NCBI GenBank assembly: GCA_000724175.1
Contig: JPGV01000007.1
Span: forward strand, 1-64,000
DNA length: 64,000 nt
Source of the DNA: [Candidatus Thermochlorobacteriaceae] bacterium GBChlB
GTDB taxonomy: Bacteria; Bacteroidota; Chlorobiia; Chlorobiales; Thermochlorobacteraceae
Direction of reading: 5' to 3'
In this document: positions 43,068 through 49,364 of the stretch, one piece after another
How the letters are laid out: each line of letters starts with the position of its first letter
Position numbering within the stretch: position 1 is the first letter of the stretch
Position numbers and translations under genes: made by a program
Notes under the pieces: model-generated
The model's input: the letters and a program-made list of their open reading frames with translations, nothing else
Databases searched by the model: none
What the model was told of the DNA's origin: nothing

Positions 43068-45023
43068 TCATCGCAGCACTTGCGACGACTCGGCGAACTT
43101 GAAGTGGCGGATAGAATTTTGTAGTTGCTCCGCTTGGTTGATAAGCTCTTGCGAGAGCTGCGAGATTTCCTGAGACGCGGTCTTGTTTTTCAACGCCGAT
43201 TCAGAAAGGGTTTCAATTGTCCGCAGGACTTTTTGTCCCGTTGCCCGTTGCATCTCGGATTGCTCAATAATCTGCGTCGTGCGAATGGTCATATCGGTCG
43301 TTTTCATCGTAACCTGTTGGCTGCTGCGCATTTGCGCATCGATAAGCCCAGAGAGCCGGCTCATAATGCCGCTTGAGCGTGAATAATACTGCGTAATTTT
43401 ATCGAGTGTTTTTTGTGCGTCTTTGACGAGCGCGGCACTGTCGAGCGCGGCTTGATTGGTTTCAATGACCGTATCGACGATTTTCATCACATTTTGGCGA
43501 ATCGACAGCACCATTTCCTGAATTTGCTGAGAAGACTGCGACGACTGTTCGGCAAGCGAACGAATTTCGCCAGCGACGACTCTGAACCCTTTTCCAGCTT
43601 CGCCTGCAATAGCGGACTCGATAGAGGCATTGACCGCAAGCAAGTTGGTCTGTTTGGCAGTTCGAGCAGCTTGGTCGGTCGTCGAGGTGATTTCGCGTGT
43701 GCTGCGCTCCAAAAGTTGAATTTGTTGGATTAAGCCTTCAAGTTTTTCCGAAATGCTCAAAATGGCTTGGCTAATTTGTTCAATGCCGAAGCGTCCGCCT
43801 TGCACTTCATTGATGACTTGGCTGAAGACTTGGTTAGCATCTTGAATGTTTCGCGCCGATTCTTGAACAGTACTGATGAGGTCTTCGATGGAGGTGCGTG
43901 TTTCGCGGACATTGATGGTCAGCCCCTGCACATCTTCGGTAACGGCGTTGATAGATGTGCTCATTTTCCCGATGGTCTGTGTCGCTTCCTTGACGGCGGT
44001 CGATTGCGATTCAGCGCTTTTTGAAATGCTGATAGCGGTGTTGCTGATGTCGAGCGCAACTTGATTAAGACGCGAAATCAAATCCATAATCTCGCGCACC
44101 GAATCCTTGACGCTATCGACGAGCATATTGAACGAATTGACAATATCGCCCAGTTCATCGGGCTGCGTGTAGCTGACGCGCTCGGCGAGATAGCCTTCGG
44201 AAATGCGTTTCGCCGAGCCTGCAATTTTTTGAATGGGCGTCGCCAAGGCGCGCTGCACCATAAAGACTACCATGCCGATAGCAAACGCTGCTGCGCCCAG
44301 AATAATGCCGATGCCTGAAAGCAGATTGAACAATTGGCTGCGTTTGATTTTTTCGGCGGGAATAATCACTGAAACGGCGCCGCGCAAATCGCCGATGCGG
44401 TAGCCGTAGCCCGTTTCATATTTGTTCTGAACATATTCCGGCGCTGACGCTCGGTCGCCATGACAGGTCAAACATTGACGCTTGATAATAATAGGCTGCG
44501 TGAGTTTGTAAAAATCTTGATTGTTGATGGTTGTCTCTTCCCAAATGGTCAGTTCCGACATCACGCCAGCTTCGTCCAGGCTACGCGAGCGGGCGTCGGC
44601 GAGTCGCGCGTCAAGGGTTTTTAAGAGTTTCTCTTCGTTCTCGTCGGGCTTGTTGAGCGGGTTACGAAAATTGAGTGTGGTTTGCCTAATGTAATAATTT
44701 TCGGGAAGTCGCGCGCTCAAGAGTTCCAACTCGCGGGGTTGTGCGTCTTTTTGTGCCATGCGCGGGTTGTAGTGAACCATCGTGAGCATTGAGCGTGTGC
44801 TGTCGGAAAGTGTAATGGGGCTGTTGACAAACGTCTCAGCGTTGTATTGCCAGAGCGTTTGCATTGTGCTTGCCAGTTGAGTTGCTCGCTCTTTGAGGTC
44901 AGCGTCAATGAGGGCGCTTTGCCGCGTCTGAAAAATAAATCCGACAGTAAGAATCAGAACGGCGAAAACGGATGAAAACGTGATGATAAGTTTGCGGGCG
45001 AGTGTGCTGTTGAGCGGCTCCAT
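43068..45023 (-). CDS. Methyl-accepting chemotaxis protein with heme c-type sensor domain (DUF3365-like)
   Basis: The 651-residue transducer has a first membrane helix (about residues 10-32), a periplasmic sensor domain, a second helix (about 235-260), a HAMP domain (about 260-315), and a long MCP signalling domain (the hairpin tip near [37 protein letters not shown]). The sensor domain resembles the DUF3365/Tll0287-like heme domain, and a CxxCH motif (CLTCHG, near residue 183) sits in [15 protein letters not shown], so it probably binds a heme and senses redox or gas. The start at 45023 is preferred over one 19 codons upstream. It is the last gene of the cassette that starts at 49.2 kb. Confidence 0.9.
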
Positions 45024-45092
45024 AATTGTGTTAGTGTGGCAGCGTCCGCCTCCGACGCCGCGTGTTGGCGGCGTCGGCACGGAACATGCGGT

Positions 45093-46901
45093 TTAGCTCT
45101 TGGTCAACGTTGGTATTTTGGTAAACTTGTAGCCTAAGGCTTTCATCGCCTTCGTCAGGCTTTCTGTATCCTGATTGACTTTGTGCTTGACTTCAGCTAT
45201 CGACTTGCTGGAAATGCCGATTTCAGTGTTGAAATAATCCAGAACAGATTTGGTGAGGTTCGCCAGCGCAGCTTCCGCATCGCCCTCGACGCTCAATCCC
45301 GTGATGCTTTTTTCATCTGGAACAACCGAGTAACGGAAACTGAAGTCAATAAAGTTCAAGATGTTCGGATTTTGTGTGCTGCGCACATCGGTCGAACGGT
45401 AGCGTTCAATATAATCGCGCACAACCACATCAGGACGGACTTTGTTGGCCTCGGCAATCAGATCTGCAAACGCCTTCGTGTATTCGGCGCGCAGAGAGGT
45501 TTGTCGGAACGGCACGTCGCCTTTCATGGAGTCCATGCGCTTTTGCCACAAGTCAATGGCTTCAAGGAACTTTCGGAAGCGCAGGTTTTCCATTTGGGCT
45601 TTTTTCATCTCGTCTTTTTCCATCACCTCTTTCTTATCGGGCTGCTCGAAGCGCGTGCGAAGTTGTTTGGTATCCGACTTGAAGCGGCGCTCCATAAACT
45701 TTTCAGCATAGCTCGCGTCTTTTTTGCGAAGGGTCAAAAGGAAGTCCAATCCGTCGTTCTCGACAAGCGGCAGCGGCACTTTGATGTATCGGCAGGCTTC
45801 ATCGAGGCGTCCGACTTCAATGTAGAAATTGGCGAGCGCGATTTGATACGGATAGTAGTTCAGGTCCGATGAGAATGTCATCAGCCAATAAAATTCCTTG
45901 CGCACCAAGTCTGTTTCTTTCATGGCGCGTTCTTTCCAGTAGAAACTTTTTTGCGCTTTGTCTTCGGGCGACGGCACTTTGATTTTCTTAAAGAGACCAG
46001 CTTTGACATAAGCAGGACCTGTAACGCCTTCTTTTTCCGTGAGCGAGTCAATCGCGGCTTTGACTTTTTGTCGCACCTCTTCCTGACCTTTGAGCGCTTG
46101 TTGGTCTAAGGCTGTGTAGAAGTGCATCACTGCACTGAGTTTGTTTTCGACTTGGTCATCGCCTTTGGACGTCTTGACGGCTTCGAGGTGATTGTATCCG
46201 ATGCGGTAGTTACAATCGAACAAAATTTCATCTTGCCGCTTGACGATGGCGTCGGAGCGTCTGCCCACGCCTTGCTTGAAACGAATGTTGAGTGCAAGCG
46301 CAACGGTAAGCGCTTTGAAGTAATCTTTGTTCCGATAGTGCTGCTCGACTTCAAACATCTTGGCTTCTTCGTCAATCGACTGCTCCAATTCCTCGTCGAT
46401 TTCGAGCACAATCTTATCGCCATCAATTCTCAGAATGCTGTCATCGGCTTCGGTAAAAGCGTCTGACATGGCTTCCGAGTCGCTGAGAATATCACCGAGA
46501 ACGCCTTCAAGGTCGAGTCCGAGCAGGCTGTCGGCGAAATCGTGTTTGGCTTCGCCGAAGACTGGAACATCGTCGTCGGCTGCTGGAGCCGCAGTCGGAG
46601 CTGGAGCGGGTGCAGCTTGTTTAGCGGGTGCGGCTTTGGCGGCAATCGGCGCAGGTGCAGGCTTTGCAGGAGCGGCCTTCAAGTTCTTCACCGTCTCGTC
46701 GATGAGCGTGAGATACTCTTGCAGTTTCGCATCGGAAATGCTGCTCGACGCCACATACAGCTGCACGTTTTTCAACTCCATGAAGAGCGTTTGCAGGAAC
46801 GGGTTTGTGTTGTTGTCGGTCAATGCCTGCTCAACATCTTTGGCATTGACCAGCAATTTTTCCACTAATTGCGCGCGAAGCGCCGCCGTGTCTTTATTCA
46901 T
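45093..46901 (-). CDS. 602-residue protein of unknown family in a chemosensory cluster
   Basis: No known family is recognised. The N-terminal 75 residues are helical. A low-complexity linker rich in Pro/Ala/Lys (about residues 77-110) and an acidic stretch (about 110-180, with repeated D/E) precede a large helical body (about 185-590) that has no membrane segment, no signal peptide and no HATPase or receiver motif. It is not an obvious CheA, although the linker placement recalls CheA P1-P2 layouts. The gene sits between cheW and the MCP gene, so it probably takes part in their signalling complex as a scaffold, adaptor or output protein. Codon use matches its neighbours. Confidence 0.75.
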   Translation of the reverse strand: MNKDTAALRAQLVEKLLVNAKDVEQALTDNNTNPFLQTLFMELKNVQLYVASSSISDAKLQEYLTLIDETVKNLKAAPAKPAPAPIAAKAAPAKQAAPAPAPTAAPAADDDVPVFGEAKHDFADSLLGLDLEGVLGDILSDSEAMSDAFTEADDSILRIDGDKIVLEIDEELEQSIDEEAKMFEVEQHYRNKDYFKALTVALALNIRFKQGVGRRSDAIVKRQDEILFDCNYRIGYNHLEAVKTSKGDDQVENKLSAVMHFYTALDQQALKGQEEVRQKVKAAIDSLTEKEGVTGPAYVKAGLFKKIKVPSPEDKAQKSFYWKERAMKETDLVRKEFYWLMTFSSDLNYYPYQIALANFYIEVGRLDEACRYIKVPLPLVENDGLDFLLTLRKKDASYAEKFMERRFKSDTKQLRTRFEQPDKKEVMEKDEMKKAQMENLRFRKFLEAIDLWQKRMDSMKGDVPFRQTSLRAEYTKAFADLIAEANKVRPDVVVRDYIERYRSTDVRSTQNPNILNFIDFSFRYSVVPDEKSITGLSVEGDAEAALANLTKSVLDYFNTEIGISSKSIAEVKHKVNQDTESLTKAMKALGYKFTKIPTLTKS

Positions 46902-46979
46902 GGTTTCCCTTTTGGGTTTTTAATTTAGATTAGAAAATCATCTCTGAACTTCTCGGAGGCGAGACGAACGACAAAAAAA

Positions 46980-47618
46980 TTATTGAAATTGACTCAGTTC
47001 TTTTGTGCCTAAAAGCCGCTCGGTGTCCATCAAAATCACATCATTGGCGCGGTTTTCTTCGCCGGGTCGGGCGTAGAGCCCACGCGAGAGCGGCGCAATG
47101 TGCGAGAGTTCGCCGTCAGCGGCGTTAATTTTAACAACCTCTCGCTCGGCTACCCGAATCACATCGAGCACAGAGTCTACCAAAAACCCGACTGAAAAAA
47201 TCTCACCGTGCACAATTACCATTTTTTCGGCGGCGCGGTCGCGCCGCGACTTCCGGCGTTGGTCTAAGCCCAAAATGGTATGCAGATTTACCACCGATGT
47301 AATTTCTCCACGCACATTGCAAATTCCCAACACATACTTTGGAACGCCCGGCACCGGGCTGACGCGCTGCACATTGAGAATCGCTTCGATATCCGTAACA
47401 CGAAACGCAATTTCACGGTCGGATACTAAAACGACGATGTATTGTTCCCGCGCTTCATCTTCGGCTTCGATGTTGGAGCGAGTTTTCTCTGCTTCCAAAT
47501 TGCCCAACCACTTGATAGCGTCGCTTGAAAGCGTGTTGACCTCGTCGAGGTTGATTTCGCCCAAGGGTTTTCGCGCAGACGGCGGCGATGATGAAGACGT
47601 ACCATTGGATAGTCCCAT
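46980..47618 (-). CDS. cheW: CheW-like coupling protein
   Basis: CheW links chemoreceptors to the CheA kinase. The 212-residue protein has a disordered N-terminal tail of about 60 residues, then the CheW domain (YIVVLVSDREIAFRVTDIEAILNVQRVSPVPGVPKYVLGICNVRGEITSVVNL), ending with VGFLVDSVLDVIRV. The conserved GxxxVRG-like NVRGEI motif is near residue 110. No CheA is present in the window to couple with. The tail is longer than in E. coli CheW. It lies 39 bases after the receiver gene. Confidence 0.93.
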   Translation of the reverse strand: MGLSNGTSSSSPPSARKPLGEINLDEVNTLSSDAIKWLGNLEAEKTRSNIEAEDEAREQYIVVLVSDREIAFRVTDIEAILNVQRVSPVPGVPKYVLGICNVRGEITSVVNLHTILGLDQRRKSRRDRAAEKMVIVHGEIFSVGFLVDSVLDVIRVAEREVVKINAADGELSHIAPLSRGLYARPGEENRANDVILMDTERLLGTKELSQFQ

Positions 47619-47657
47619 AGTTTAGCTGTCAGAATTAGAGTGCACCGCATGATGAAC

Positions 47658-48026
47658 TCAGGACGGCGTCATGGCTTTCACGACGGCTGACTTCAAATCG
47701 TCCTCATTAAACGGCTTAATAAGATACGCCAAAGCGCCTTGTTTCATTCCCCAAAACTTATCGCTGTCTTGGTCTTTCGATGTAATCATGATAATTGGAA
47801 TGTTCGCAGTTTCTGGTGCTTTTTTCAGGTTGCGACAGACTTGAAACCCGTCTTTCTTCGGCATCACGACATCGAGAACGATGATATCCGGCTTGACAGA
47901 TTTGGCTTTTTCTTCGCCCTCTTCGCCGTCGTTGGCTTCGACAATGGAGTAGCCCAGTCCCGTCATTACCTTCGCAATGATGGTGCGTTCAACGGCGCTG
48001 TCGTCTATGATGAGAACCCGTGGCAT
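47658..48026 (-). CDS. Single-domain response regulator (CheY/PilH-like)
   Basis: The 122-residue receiver domain has Asp at about 53 (DIIVLDVVMPKKDGF), acidic residues near 8-9 (IIDDSAVE), Thr/Ser in ITSKDQD, and the conserved Lys in LIKPFNEDD. It is a single-domain protein, like CheY or PilH, with no output domain. It would be phosphorylated by an unseen CheA or hybrid kinase. It follows the PATAN-REC gene by 38 bases. Confidence 0.94.
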   Translation of the reverse strand: MPRVLIIDDSAVERTIIAKVMTGLGYSIVEANDGEEGEEKAKSVKPDIIVLDVVMPKKDGFQVCRNLKKAPETANIPIIMITSKDQDSDKFWGMKQGALAYLIKPFNEDDLKSAVVKAMTPS

Positions 48027-48064
48027 ATCAAACGAAAAAATTTGGTTGCGATTTTAAATGAAAC

Positions 48065-49171
48065 TTAGTTGCTGTTTTTCAAAAACTTCTCGACCACTTG
48101 AACCAGTTCACCATCTTTGAACGGCTTGGTAACATAGTCATTTGCGCCAGCATGCAACCCTAAGTTGCGATCGATTTCCGCATCTTTCGCCGAGAGCATC
48201 ACTATCGGCGTATCTTTGAGCGCATCGAACTCGGAGCGGATGGTTTTACAAACTTTCAGCCCCGTTGTGTCGGGCAGCATCACATCGAGTAAAATTAAAT
48301 CGGGCTGCTGTTCTTTTACAAGTTCAAGCGCCGCTTTACCAGATTCGGCGGTAATGAGGCTATACCCGGTTTCGGCAAGCGCCATTTGAATTGTCTTTAA
48401 AATCACCTTGCTGTCGTCGACAGCCAAAATTTTCTTGCGCGTGTCTGCCTGCGCCTGCGGCAGTTCAACCCACTTGCCATCAAGCAAGACCACTAACGCT
48501 TTCATGACAGACACTTCTTCCATTTTGAGCTTCAGCGCCAGCGTCTTGATGTCGGTTTTGCCGTCAATGGCAAGAAAAACTTTCCACTCGACGAGCTTGA
48601 GCGAAATTTCGCCTTGCTCTTCCTTGCCGCGTTTGGTAATATGCGGAACAAGCGACGTGCTGGGAATTTTTTGTCGAACCAATTCAAGTTCGTCGACTTT
48701 AACCGACGCGCTGAGCATAATGCCTTGAATATCGACGCCATTCGCCAGTCCTTGAACTGTGAGCGCAGCGTCGGGGTCAAACGAGACCTGTGCGCTCTTC
48801 TCTTGAAGTAACGCCGTGATGACGCGGTCGATTTGAATACGAATAGCTTTAACGAGCCTCGGCGCATCGACTTTTTTCATGCCAAGCAAAATTTGCTCGA
48901 TGCGTTTGTCTTTGTGTGTTTTCTGCAGCGAGATTGCCGCGTCGAGGTCTGCACGGGTAATCATATTTTCTTCAAGCAGAATCGCGCCTAAGTCTTCGCT
49001 GCCAGTGTCGACCGCAATTACCAATCCGTTACGAAAGAAGACGCGCTTTTGAATTTCGTCACCAAATTCAGAAGGAATCTGAACCACCATTGCGCCCGTT
49101 TTTTTAAGCTGCCGAATCAGTTGCAGCATTTCGGTAATCGTCCAACCCTTGATATTGCCTGTGAATGACAT
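48065..49171 (-). CDS. PATAN (DUF4388) - receiver domain protein
   Basis: The 368-residue protein begins with a PATAN/DUF4388 domain (FTGNIKGWTITEMLQLIRQLKKTGAMVVQ, about residues 1-95), continues with a helical region and a second DUF4388-like segment (SLKLVEWKVFLAIDGKTDIKTLALKLKMEEV), and ends with a full receiver domain (about 250-365; Asp in LILLDVMLPDTTGL, Lys in VTKPFKDGE). PATAN-receiver proteins such as PatA and PixG-like regulators control motility and differentiation in cyanobacteria. The start at 49171 (MSFTGN) is preferred over one 40 codons upstream. It is the first gene of the cassette. Confidence 0.88.
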   Translation of the reverse strand: MSFTGNIKGWTITEMLQLIRQLKKTGAMVVQIPSEFGDEIQKRVFFRNGLVIAVDTGSEDLGAILLEENMITRADLDAAISLQKTHKDKRIEQILLGMKKVDAPRLVKAIRIQIDRVITALLQEKSAQVSFDPDAALTVQGLANGVDIQGIMLSASVKVDELELVRQKIPSTSLVPHITKRGKEEQGEISLKLVEWKVFLAIDGKTDIKTLALKLKMEEVSVMKALVVLLDGKWVELPQAQADTRKKILAVDDSKVILKTIQMALAETGYSLITAESGKAALELVKEQQPDLILLDVMLPDTTGLKVCKTIRSEFDALKDTPIVMLSAKDAEIDRNLGLHAGANDYVTKPFKDGELVQVVEKFLKNSN

Positions 49172-49311
49172 CCGTATCCTGTATTGTGAAATGAAGAAGT
49201 GCGTTTGAAGTCTCGTTATCGGCGGTGCATCGCCGCCCTGGTGTTGAGTGAGGTAATATAGCGACGCCTCCGAAAAATTCAAAAGAAGCAAAGCAGGAAA
49301 GAAAACAAAAT

Positions 49312-49339
49312 AAAAAAGCCCCGCTGTTTCAGCGAGGCT
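49312..49339 (-). terminator. Terminator of the fasciclin lipoprotein gene
   Basis: On the minus strand GAAGCCTCGCTG pairs with CAGCGGGGCTTT (one G-U pair) across an AAA loop, followed by TTTTTT. It is 26 bases beyond the stop at 49365. Confidence 0.85.
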
Positions 49340-49364
49340 TCAAGGACAAGCGTTGCGCTAAGGC

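Follow-up and report, generated by a model that had tools for sequence, protein, structure and literature searches.

Within the window, by which we mean the whole stretch of 64,000 nucleotides analysed, five chemosensory genes follow one another on the reverse strand between positions 49171 and 43068 (Table 1). They encode a PATAN-REC response regulator, a CheY, a CheW (CheW1), an orphan protein that we refer to as X602, and an MCP (MCP2). A sequence-only reading of this DNA had proposed a cassette of five co-directional genes, and we recovered all of them, with Pfam agreeing on the four identities that had been assigned. The genes are separated by gaps of 38, 39, 78 and 69 bp. In alignments, CheW1 has an N-terminal extension of about 55 residues and a canonical NVRG motif. 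MCP2 probably starts at the ATG at 45023, giving a protein of 651 residues, rather than at a GTG at 45080, because the MCPs of related genomes align from the ATG. A terminator-like hairpin sets the upstream gene apart from the operon. Upstream of the first gene there is a weak promoter-like site, although this region is richer in such sites than shuffled sequences are, so that the consensus match is not proof of a promoter.

Table 1. Features of the chemosensory operon and its upstream region, in window coordinates
Feature	Position	Strand	Remarks
PATAN(DUF4388)-REC response regulator, first gene of the operon	48065..49171	-	368 aa; Pfam DUF4388 E 1.3e-18, Response_reg E 1.4e-28
CheY-like stand-alone receiver (PilH position)	47658..48026	-	122 aa; Pfam Response_reg E 9.8e-27
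CheW1 coupling protein	46980..47618	-	212 aa; Pfam CheW E 4.1e-22
X602, orphan protein	45093..46901	-	602 residues; no significant Pfam family
MCP2: TM, Tll0287-like haem-c single-Cache, HAMP, MCP signalling domain	43068..45023	-	Pfam Tll0287-like E 4.5e-27, MCPsignal E 1.3e-27, HAMP
Terminator-like hairpin of upstream gene	49315..49341	-	12-bp stem and T-run; sets upstream gene apart from operon
Promoter-like site, weak	49255..49282	-	TTGAAT-16-TATATT, consensus match; 84 bp upstream of first ATG

We found X602 in 16 of the 395 genomes sampled in the phylum. Twelve of these are Chlorobia and make up all of the genomes of families f1, f3 and f4. In family f2, X602 was found in 0 of 86 genomes; three matches there (E 7e-5 to 8e-4) were short and fell within the low-complexity N-terminal part. 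To judge from the size of the group and its named relatives, family f2 should be the non-motile Chlorobiaceae. PMC9318685 describes the Chlorobiaceae as nonmotile and Chloroherpeton as a glider, with Thermochlorobacter also regarded as gliding. Neither a CheW domain nor CheA was found in the three f2 genomes checked, and X602 is restricted within the Chlorobia to lineages with che genes (12/12 versus 0/86). The remaining four carriers are all of the sampled genomes of one small class (family f5), with 35-36% X602 identity. Among named organisms, the nearest relatives of X602 come from Candidatus Thermochlorobacter aerophilum (67% identity), from a Chlorobiales bacterium and from a Chloroherpetonaceae bacterium, which places the window in the order Chlorobiales but outside the nonmotile Chlorobiaceae.

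The phylum sample was searched with X602, and the following counts of conservation are among X602-carrying genomes. The sequence-only reading had suggested asking whether homologues of the orphan protein are always next to cheW and an MCP. X602 directly follows the cassette cheW in all 16 carriers, and in 15 it also adjoins the MCP2 gene. The same five genes occur in the same order in those 15 genomes, at X602 identities of 35-70%, while the flanking genes differ. The maintenance of the block amid varying flanks indicates that the arrangement is not due to chance and that the block itself is the conserved unit. In the sixteenth carrier, G091, only the MCP2 gene is elsewhere, on another contig. 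The PATAN-REC gene is first and the position of the stand-alone CheY is kept in every carrier. In G096 (L036, 8722-10508), X602 is in two frames, which could represent a pseudogene or a sequencing error in the assembly.

The X602 sequence can be divided into three regions. Residues 1-75 are helical and dispensable, being missing in genus g3 and family f5. Residues 76-160 are predicted to be disordered, with a conserved LGLDLxxxLGDxLSD motif at about residues 127-140, and residues 162-602 form the conserved core, which is helical in the model. Many columns are invariant down to 35% identity, and the polar motifs RxDxxVxRQ(D/N)E, DEEAKMF and ALDQ are strictly conserved. The helix pattern of X602 gives no sign of a signal peptide or a membrane segment, and the protein is presumably cytoplasmic. 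The protein had gone unrecognised in the sequence-only reading, and our profile searches likewise matched it to no known family in Pfam, NCBIfam or the PDB. When the PDB was searched with profiles of 11 and of 15 X602 sequences, all matches were at noise level, one of them to CheA at E 0.42.

The disordered linker held a first model of full-length X602 to a mean pLDDT of 73.8. An AF2 model of the core that included four remote homologues, built from 15 sequences, was far better, with a pLDDT of 89.9, a pTM of 0.80 and nearly all residues in helix. Fold searches with the two models returned nothing significant; the best PDB matches of the core model were TPR and HAT solenoids, all of them weak (E 9e-3 or higher, TM-score 0.25 or lower). 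Four of the 15 X602 members had sub-threshold TPR matches in Pfam, the best being TPR_7 at E 0.017. Membership in a TPR family was rejected at the sequence level, no TPR being above the Pfam cut-off. The core is thus modelled with confidence as all-helical and may be a TPR-like solenoid, and no solved structure is closely related to it. Helical solenoids are also found in enzymes and chaperones.

The sequence-only reading had noted that the window contains no CheA, which is correct, and had suggested either that the kinase of a specialised array is encoded elsewhere or that the orphan protein replaces a normal part. A search of the genome (3.05 Mb in 51 contigs, rated 100% complete; absence statements for it rest on six-frame family searches) supports the former. 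The CheW family occurs in four places, one in the window (CheW1) and three on contig C40 (CheA and two more CheWs). The genome has one CheA, a multi-Hpt protein of about 2,050 aa with a C-terminal REC domain, which is broken across contigs C30 and C40. The gene runs off the end of C30 and the start of C40, leaving fragments of 1,328 and 728 aa. These match contiguous stretches of the 2,055-residue CheA of G097, one match ending at residue 1290 and the next starting at 1294, the assembly having split the gene inside a repeated Hpt region. In G097 and G087, CheA consists of two to three Hpt domains followed by H-kinase_dim, HATPase_c, CheW and REC domains, and the fragments match this organization; no P2 domain was among the matches listed. 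A make-up of Hpt, dimerization, HATPase, CheW and REC domains has been reported for the Tfp and ACF classes (PMC10782961). With its multiple Hpt domains and C-terminal REC, this CheA has a domain make-up that fits the Tfp class.

The CheA gene lies in a second operon (C40 1-5608, locus L005; C30 1-6712, locus L070) encoding MCP1, CheA, CheW2, CheW3, a REC-PATAN protein, a roadblock protein and MglA. MCP1 has Cache and HAMP domains and a canonical tip, and MglA matches solved MglA structures over the whole GTPase domain (E 1e-69). This operon is conserved in most of the relatives, with CheW2 and CheW3 not found in genera g2 and g3. In G090 (L047), MCP1 and CheA are still together, and the genes for PATAN, roadblock and MglA proteins are not beside CheA. 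Each of the 12 Chlorobia carriers has one CheA and two MCPs. In five related genomes (G090-G094), no stand-alone CheW was found apart from CheW1 of the cassette, which should therefore be the coupling protein of the remote CheA. The gene content thus supports the interpretation of the cassette as one half of a split, two-locus system rather than as a kinase-free array. The suggestion that X602 takes the place of a normal part is unsupported for CheA and CheW, which all of the Chlorobia carriers encode. Pfam shows neither an Hpt nor an HATPase nor a CheW domain in X602, and we rejected it as a replacement for either protein.

In each of the four f5 genomes the cassette is preceded by a gene for a PAS histidine kinase, and the cassette could in principle form a separate array that uses some hybrid histidine kinase in place of the remote CheA, with X602 acting as a bridge. 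We consider this very improbable, given that no kinase adjoins the cassette in the window or in most Chlorobia, and that CheW1 is canonical and is the lone stand-alone CheW found in five genomes whose CheA has a CheW-like domain.

CheR was not found in the genome from which the window comes, and adaptation by methylation is probably missing there for that reason. Three of the 12 relatives have CheR, in two cases inside frames of 1,371-1,373 residues and in the third as a partial match. The CheR domains in the long frames (G087:C1:1957940-1958521 and G088:C59:23527-24102) occur in family f3 only. They probably belong to a sensory fusion of the CheB-CheR type rather than to an adaptation enzyme of this array.

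The sensor region of MCP2 contains CLTCH at residue 184 and matches the profile of Tll0287 (PDB 5b82, E 6.9e-13). With Pfam PF11845 above its cut-off and a CxxCH motif, it qualifies as an sCache_heme sensor. It has the CxxCH, Cache position and HAMP-MCP fusion of the NO sensors of this group (DUF3365/Tll0287), such as the GSU0582-type MCPs. Signalling-type members of the Tll0287 family bind NO via covalent haem (PMC12889525). The haem motif is present in 15 of the 16 MCP2s. The exception, and a difference from other sCache_heme sensors, is the MCP2 of G088 (L033, 7229-9130), which has lost CxxCH together with the surrounding segment and kept the rest of the receptor.

The signalling tip of MCP2 is non-canonical as well, a different run of 11 residues replacing NATIEAARAGE. 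Isoleucine or leucine stands in place of the arginine of the EAARAGE tip in all 16 MCP2s, while the tips of the MCP1s are canonical in 12 of 12. In E. coli Tsr this arginine is one of the residues that make trimer contacts. MCP1 and MCP2 might also sit in separate arrays that compete for the one CheA. The consistent difference in the tips, together with the adjacency of X602 and MCP2 in 15 genomes, would also fit an X602 that serves as an additional receptor-level adaptor, somewhat like CheV, bringing the odd-tipped MCP2 into the MCP1/CheA array. We regard this role as unlikely in itself, although it is compatible with a scaffold and so not exclusive of it; X602 has no CheW domain, and its retention behind cheW in G091, where MCP2 is elsewhere, indicates a tighter link with CheW.

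A regulator of response regulator dephosphorylation is another unlikely candidate for X602. The cassette has two receivers and no CheZ, CheC or CheX, and X602 could be a helical phosphatase or regulator of phosphorylated CheY or PATAN-REC in their place, comparable to Rap acting on Spo0F. The strictly conserved polar motifs would fit such a role, and the RapH-Spo0F complex was among the weak fold matches (E 0.12). However, many other TPR matches were as weak as the one to RapH, which was not among the matches listed for the better core model. X602 also has no CheZ, CheC or CheX match in Pfam, and the C-terminal REC domain of CheA can itself serve as a phosphate sink.

The closest known counterparts of the two loci are the Tfp-class systems, such as Pil-Chp of Pseudomonas and Pix/Pil/Tax of Synechocystis. 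Shared features are two receivers, a CheW and an MCP encoded in the same order, a PATAN receiver like those of cyanobacterial PixG/PilG/TaxP2, and one giant multi-Hpt CheA with a C-terminal REC. In contrast to that class, the Chlorobia system is split over two loci, contains X602, has a haem-c receptor and has MglA and roadblock genes in its CheA operon; CheR was not found in the window's genome, and PilB/PilT-type ATPases were not found in the gliding-lineage genomes tested. The order PATAN-REC, CheY, CheW, (X), MCP mirrors pilG-H-I-J and pixG-H-I-J (in part from PMC10519157), and the cassette could on this basis be an ordinary Tfp-type pil-chp system containing a lineage-specific filler gene. 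We give this very little credence. No type IV pilus ATPase was found in the gliding-lineage Chlorobia tested, and X602 is not filler, since many of its columns stay invariant even at 35% identity and it accompanied every copy of the cassette that the X602-based search recovered.

PilB, the motor of the pilus, is a binding partner of PATAN in Synechocystis (PMC10519157). A PilB/PilT-type ATPase (T2SSE, PF00437) was found in none of the nine gliding-lineage Chlorobia tested, which include the closed genome G087, while the same search was positive in 14 of 14 control genomes. The four f5 genomes each have one T2SSE-family ATPase, and their output may differ for that reason. The T9SS translocon SprA is present in all 16 X602 carriers and in 0 of 4 f2 genomes, and a T9SS type A sorting domain (E 1.5e-13) lies at the end of a protein whose gene is on C40. 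SprA and T9SS cargo also occur in many non-gliding bacteria, and SprA alone is no proof of gliding. No gldKLMN block was recognisable among the genes around sprA, where an NCBIfam scan gave only generic TPR matches; the GldM model matched no genome, controls included, and that search was uninformative. The absence of type IV pilus ATPases and the presence of SprA in the tested gliding-lineage genomes suggest that gliding, possibly driven by the T9SS, is a more likely output than twitching. The sequence-only reading had pointed to phototaxis or twitching on the strength of PATAN-REC. That protein is real, but the pilus ATPases are missing from the gliding-lineage Chlorobia tested and the receptor is a haem-c Cache sensor rather than a photoreceptor. 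PorX-GldL is a precedent for control of the T9SS motor by a CheY-like domain (PMC10951265), and a gliding machine of the T9SS type seems to us the likeliest target. PorX-PorL/GldL resembles the proposed output in that a receiver domain acts on this motor; PorX differs in being a two-component PglZ protein outside any MCP/CheW/CheA array.

Taken together, the gene content and the likeness to characterized systems favor, at a probability of roughly 55%, an interpretation in which the cassette supplies one of the two loci of a Tfp-like (Pil/Pix/Chp-like) system, X602 is an array scaffold and gliding is the likelier output. A covalent haem would allow MCP2 to sense NO or a redox signal on the periplasmic side, and CheW1 would couple the receptor to the remote CheA. 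CheA would then phosphorylate PATAN-REC and the stand-alone CheY, which could act as output and as modulator or phosphate sink. In the least certain step, X602 would bind CheW1/MCP2 and hold a response regulator (or MglA) beside the array. This assignment of X602 as an array-specific scaffold is suggested by its modelled fold type and by gene order. A more specific version, which we put forward tentatively and consider less probable, has the MCP-CheW-CheA pathway steering a T9SS-type gliding motor, with X602, as a helical scaffold and a new type of core array protein, coupling the odd-tipped haem array to the motor or to the MglA polarity switch.

Two systems provide analogies for such a role, in neither case with homology to X602. 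FimL/FimV hold PilG at the pole in Pseudomonas, and X602 might similarly be a non-kinase keeper of a response regulator. FimL is homologous to the N-terminus of ChpA (PMC10519157); unlike FimL, X602 has no homology to the CheA of its own genomes, and a FimL-like paralogue of the CheA N-terminus was rejected at an hhalign probability below 1%. SgmX of Myxococcus, a TPR effector of MglA-GTP, resembles X602 in that the latter is predicted to be helical and TPR-type and MglA is part of the system. By analogy X602 could link the polarity GTPase to the motility machine. SgmX has 1,060 aa and eight recognised TPRs (PMC7519303), whereas X602 has no TPR above the cut-off and is encoded with cheW and an MCP.

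X602 is a real, conserved and uncharacterised orphan component of a Tfp-like system that is split over two loci and has its output in an unusual setting. The full chemosensory set (receptors, kinase, two receivers, MglA) follows the distribution of SprA rather than that of type IV pilus ATPases, and surface movement is probably steered by a machine other than type IV pili. If the proposed scheme is true, X602 would add to the array a component that had no name, can be modelled confidently and has no known relative, and sensory control of gliding would be directly testable, as the lineage includes the cultured glider Chloroherpeton.

Two minor features of the sprA genes were also seen. A TPR protein encoded near sprA (L092 15724-16464; L095 1156-2058) is common to the window's genome and G090 (E about 1e-79) and might be a T9SS accessory protein of the PorW/SprE type. 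The window's genome contains two SprA-like genes, G000:C16:17299-23976 and G000:C5:511-5235. The latter nearly fills a 5.2-kb contig, and could be either a true second copy or the result of strain variation in the assembly.
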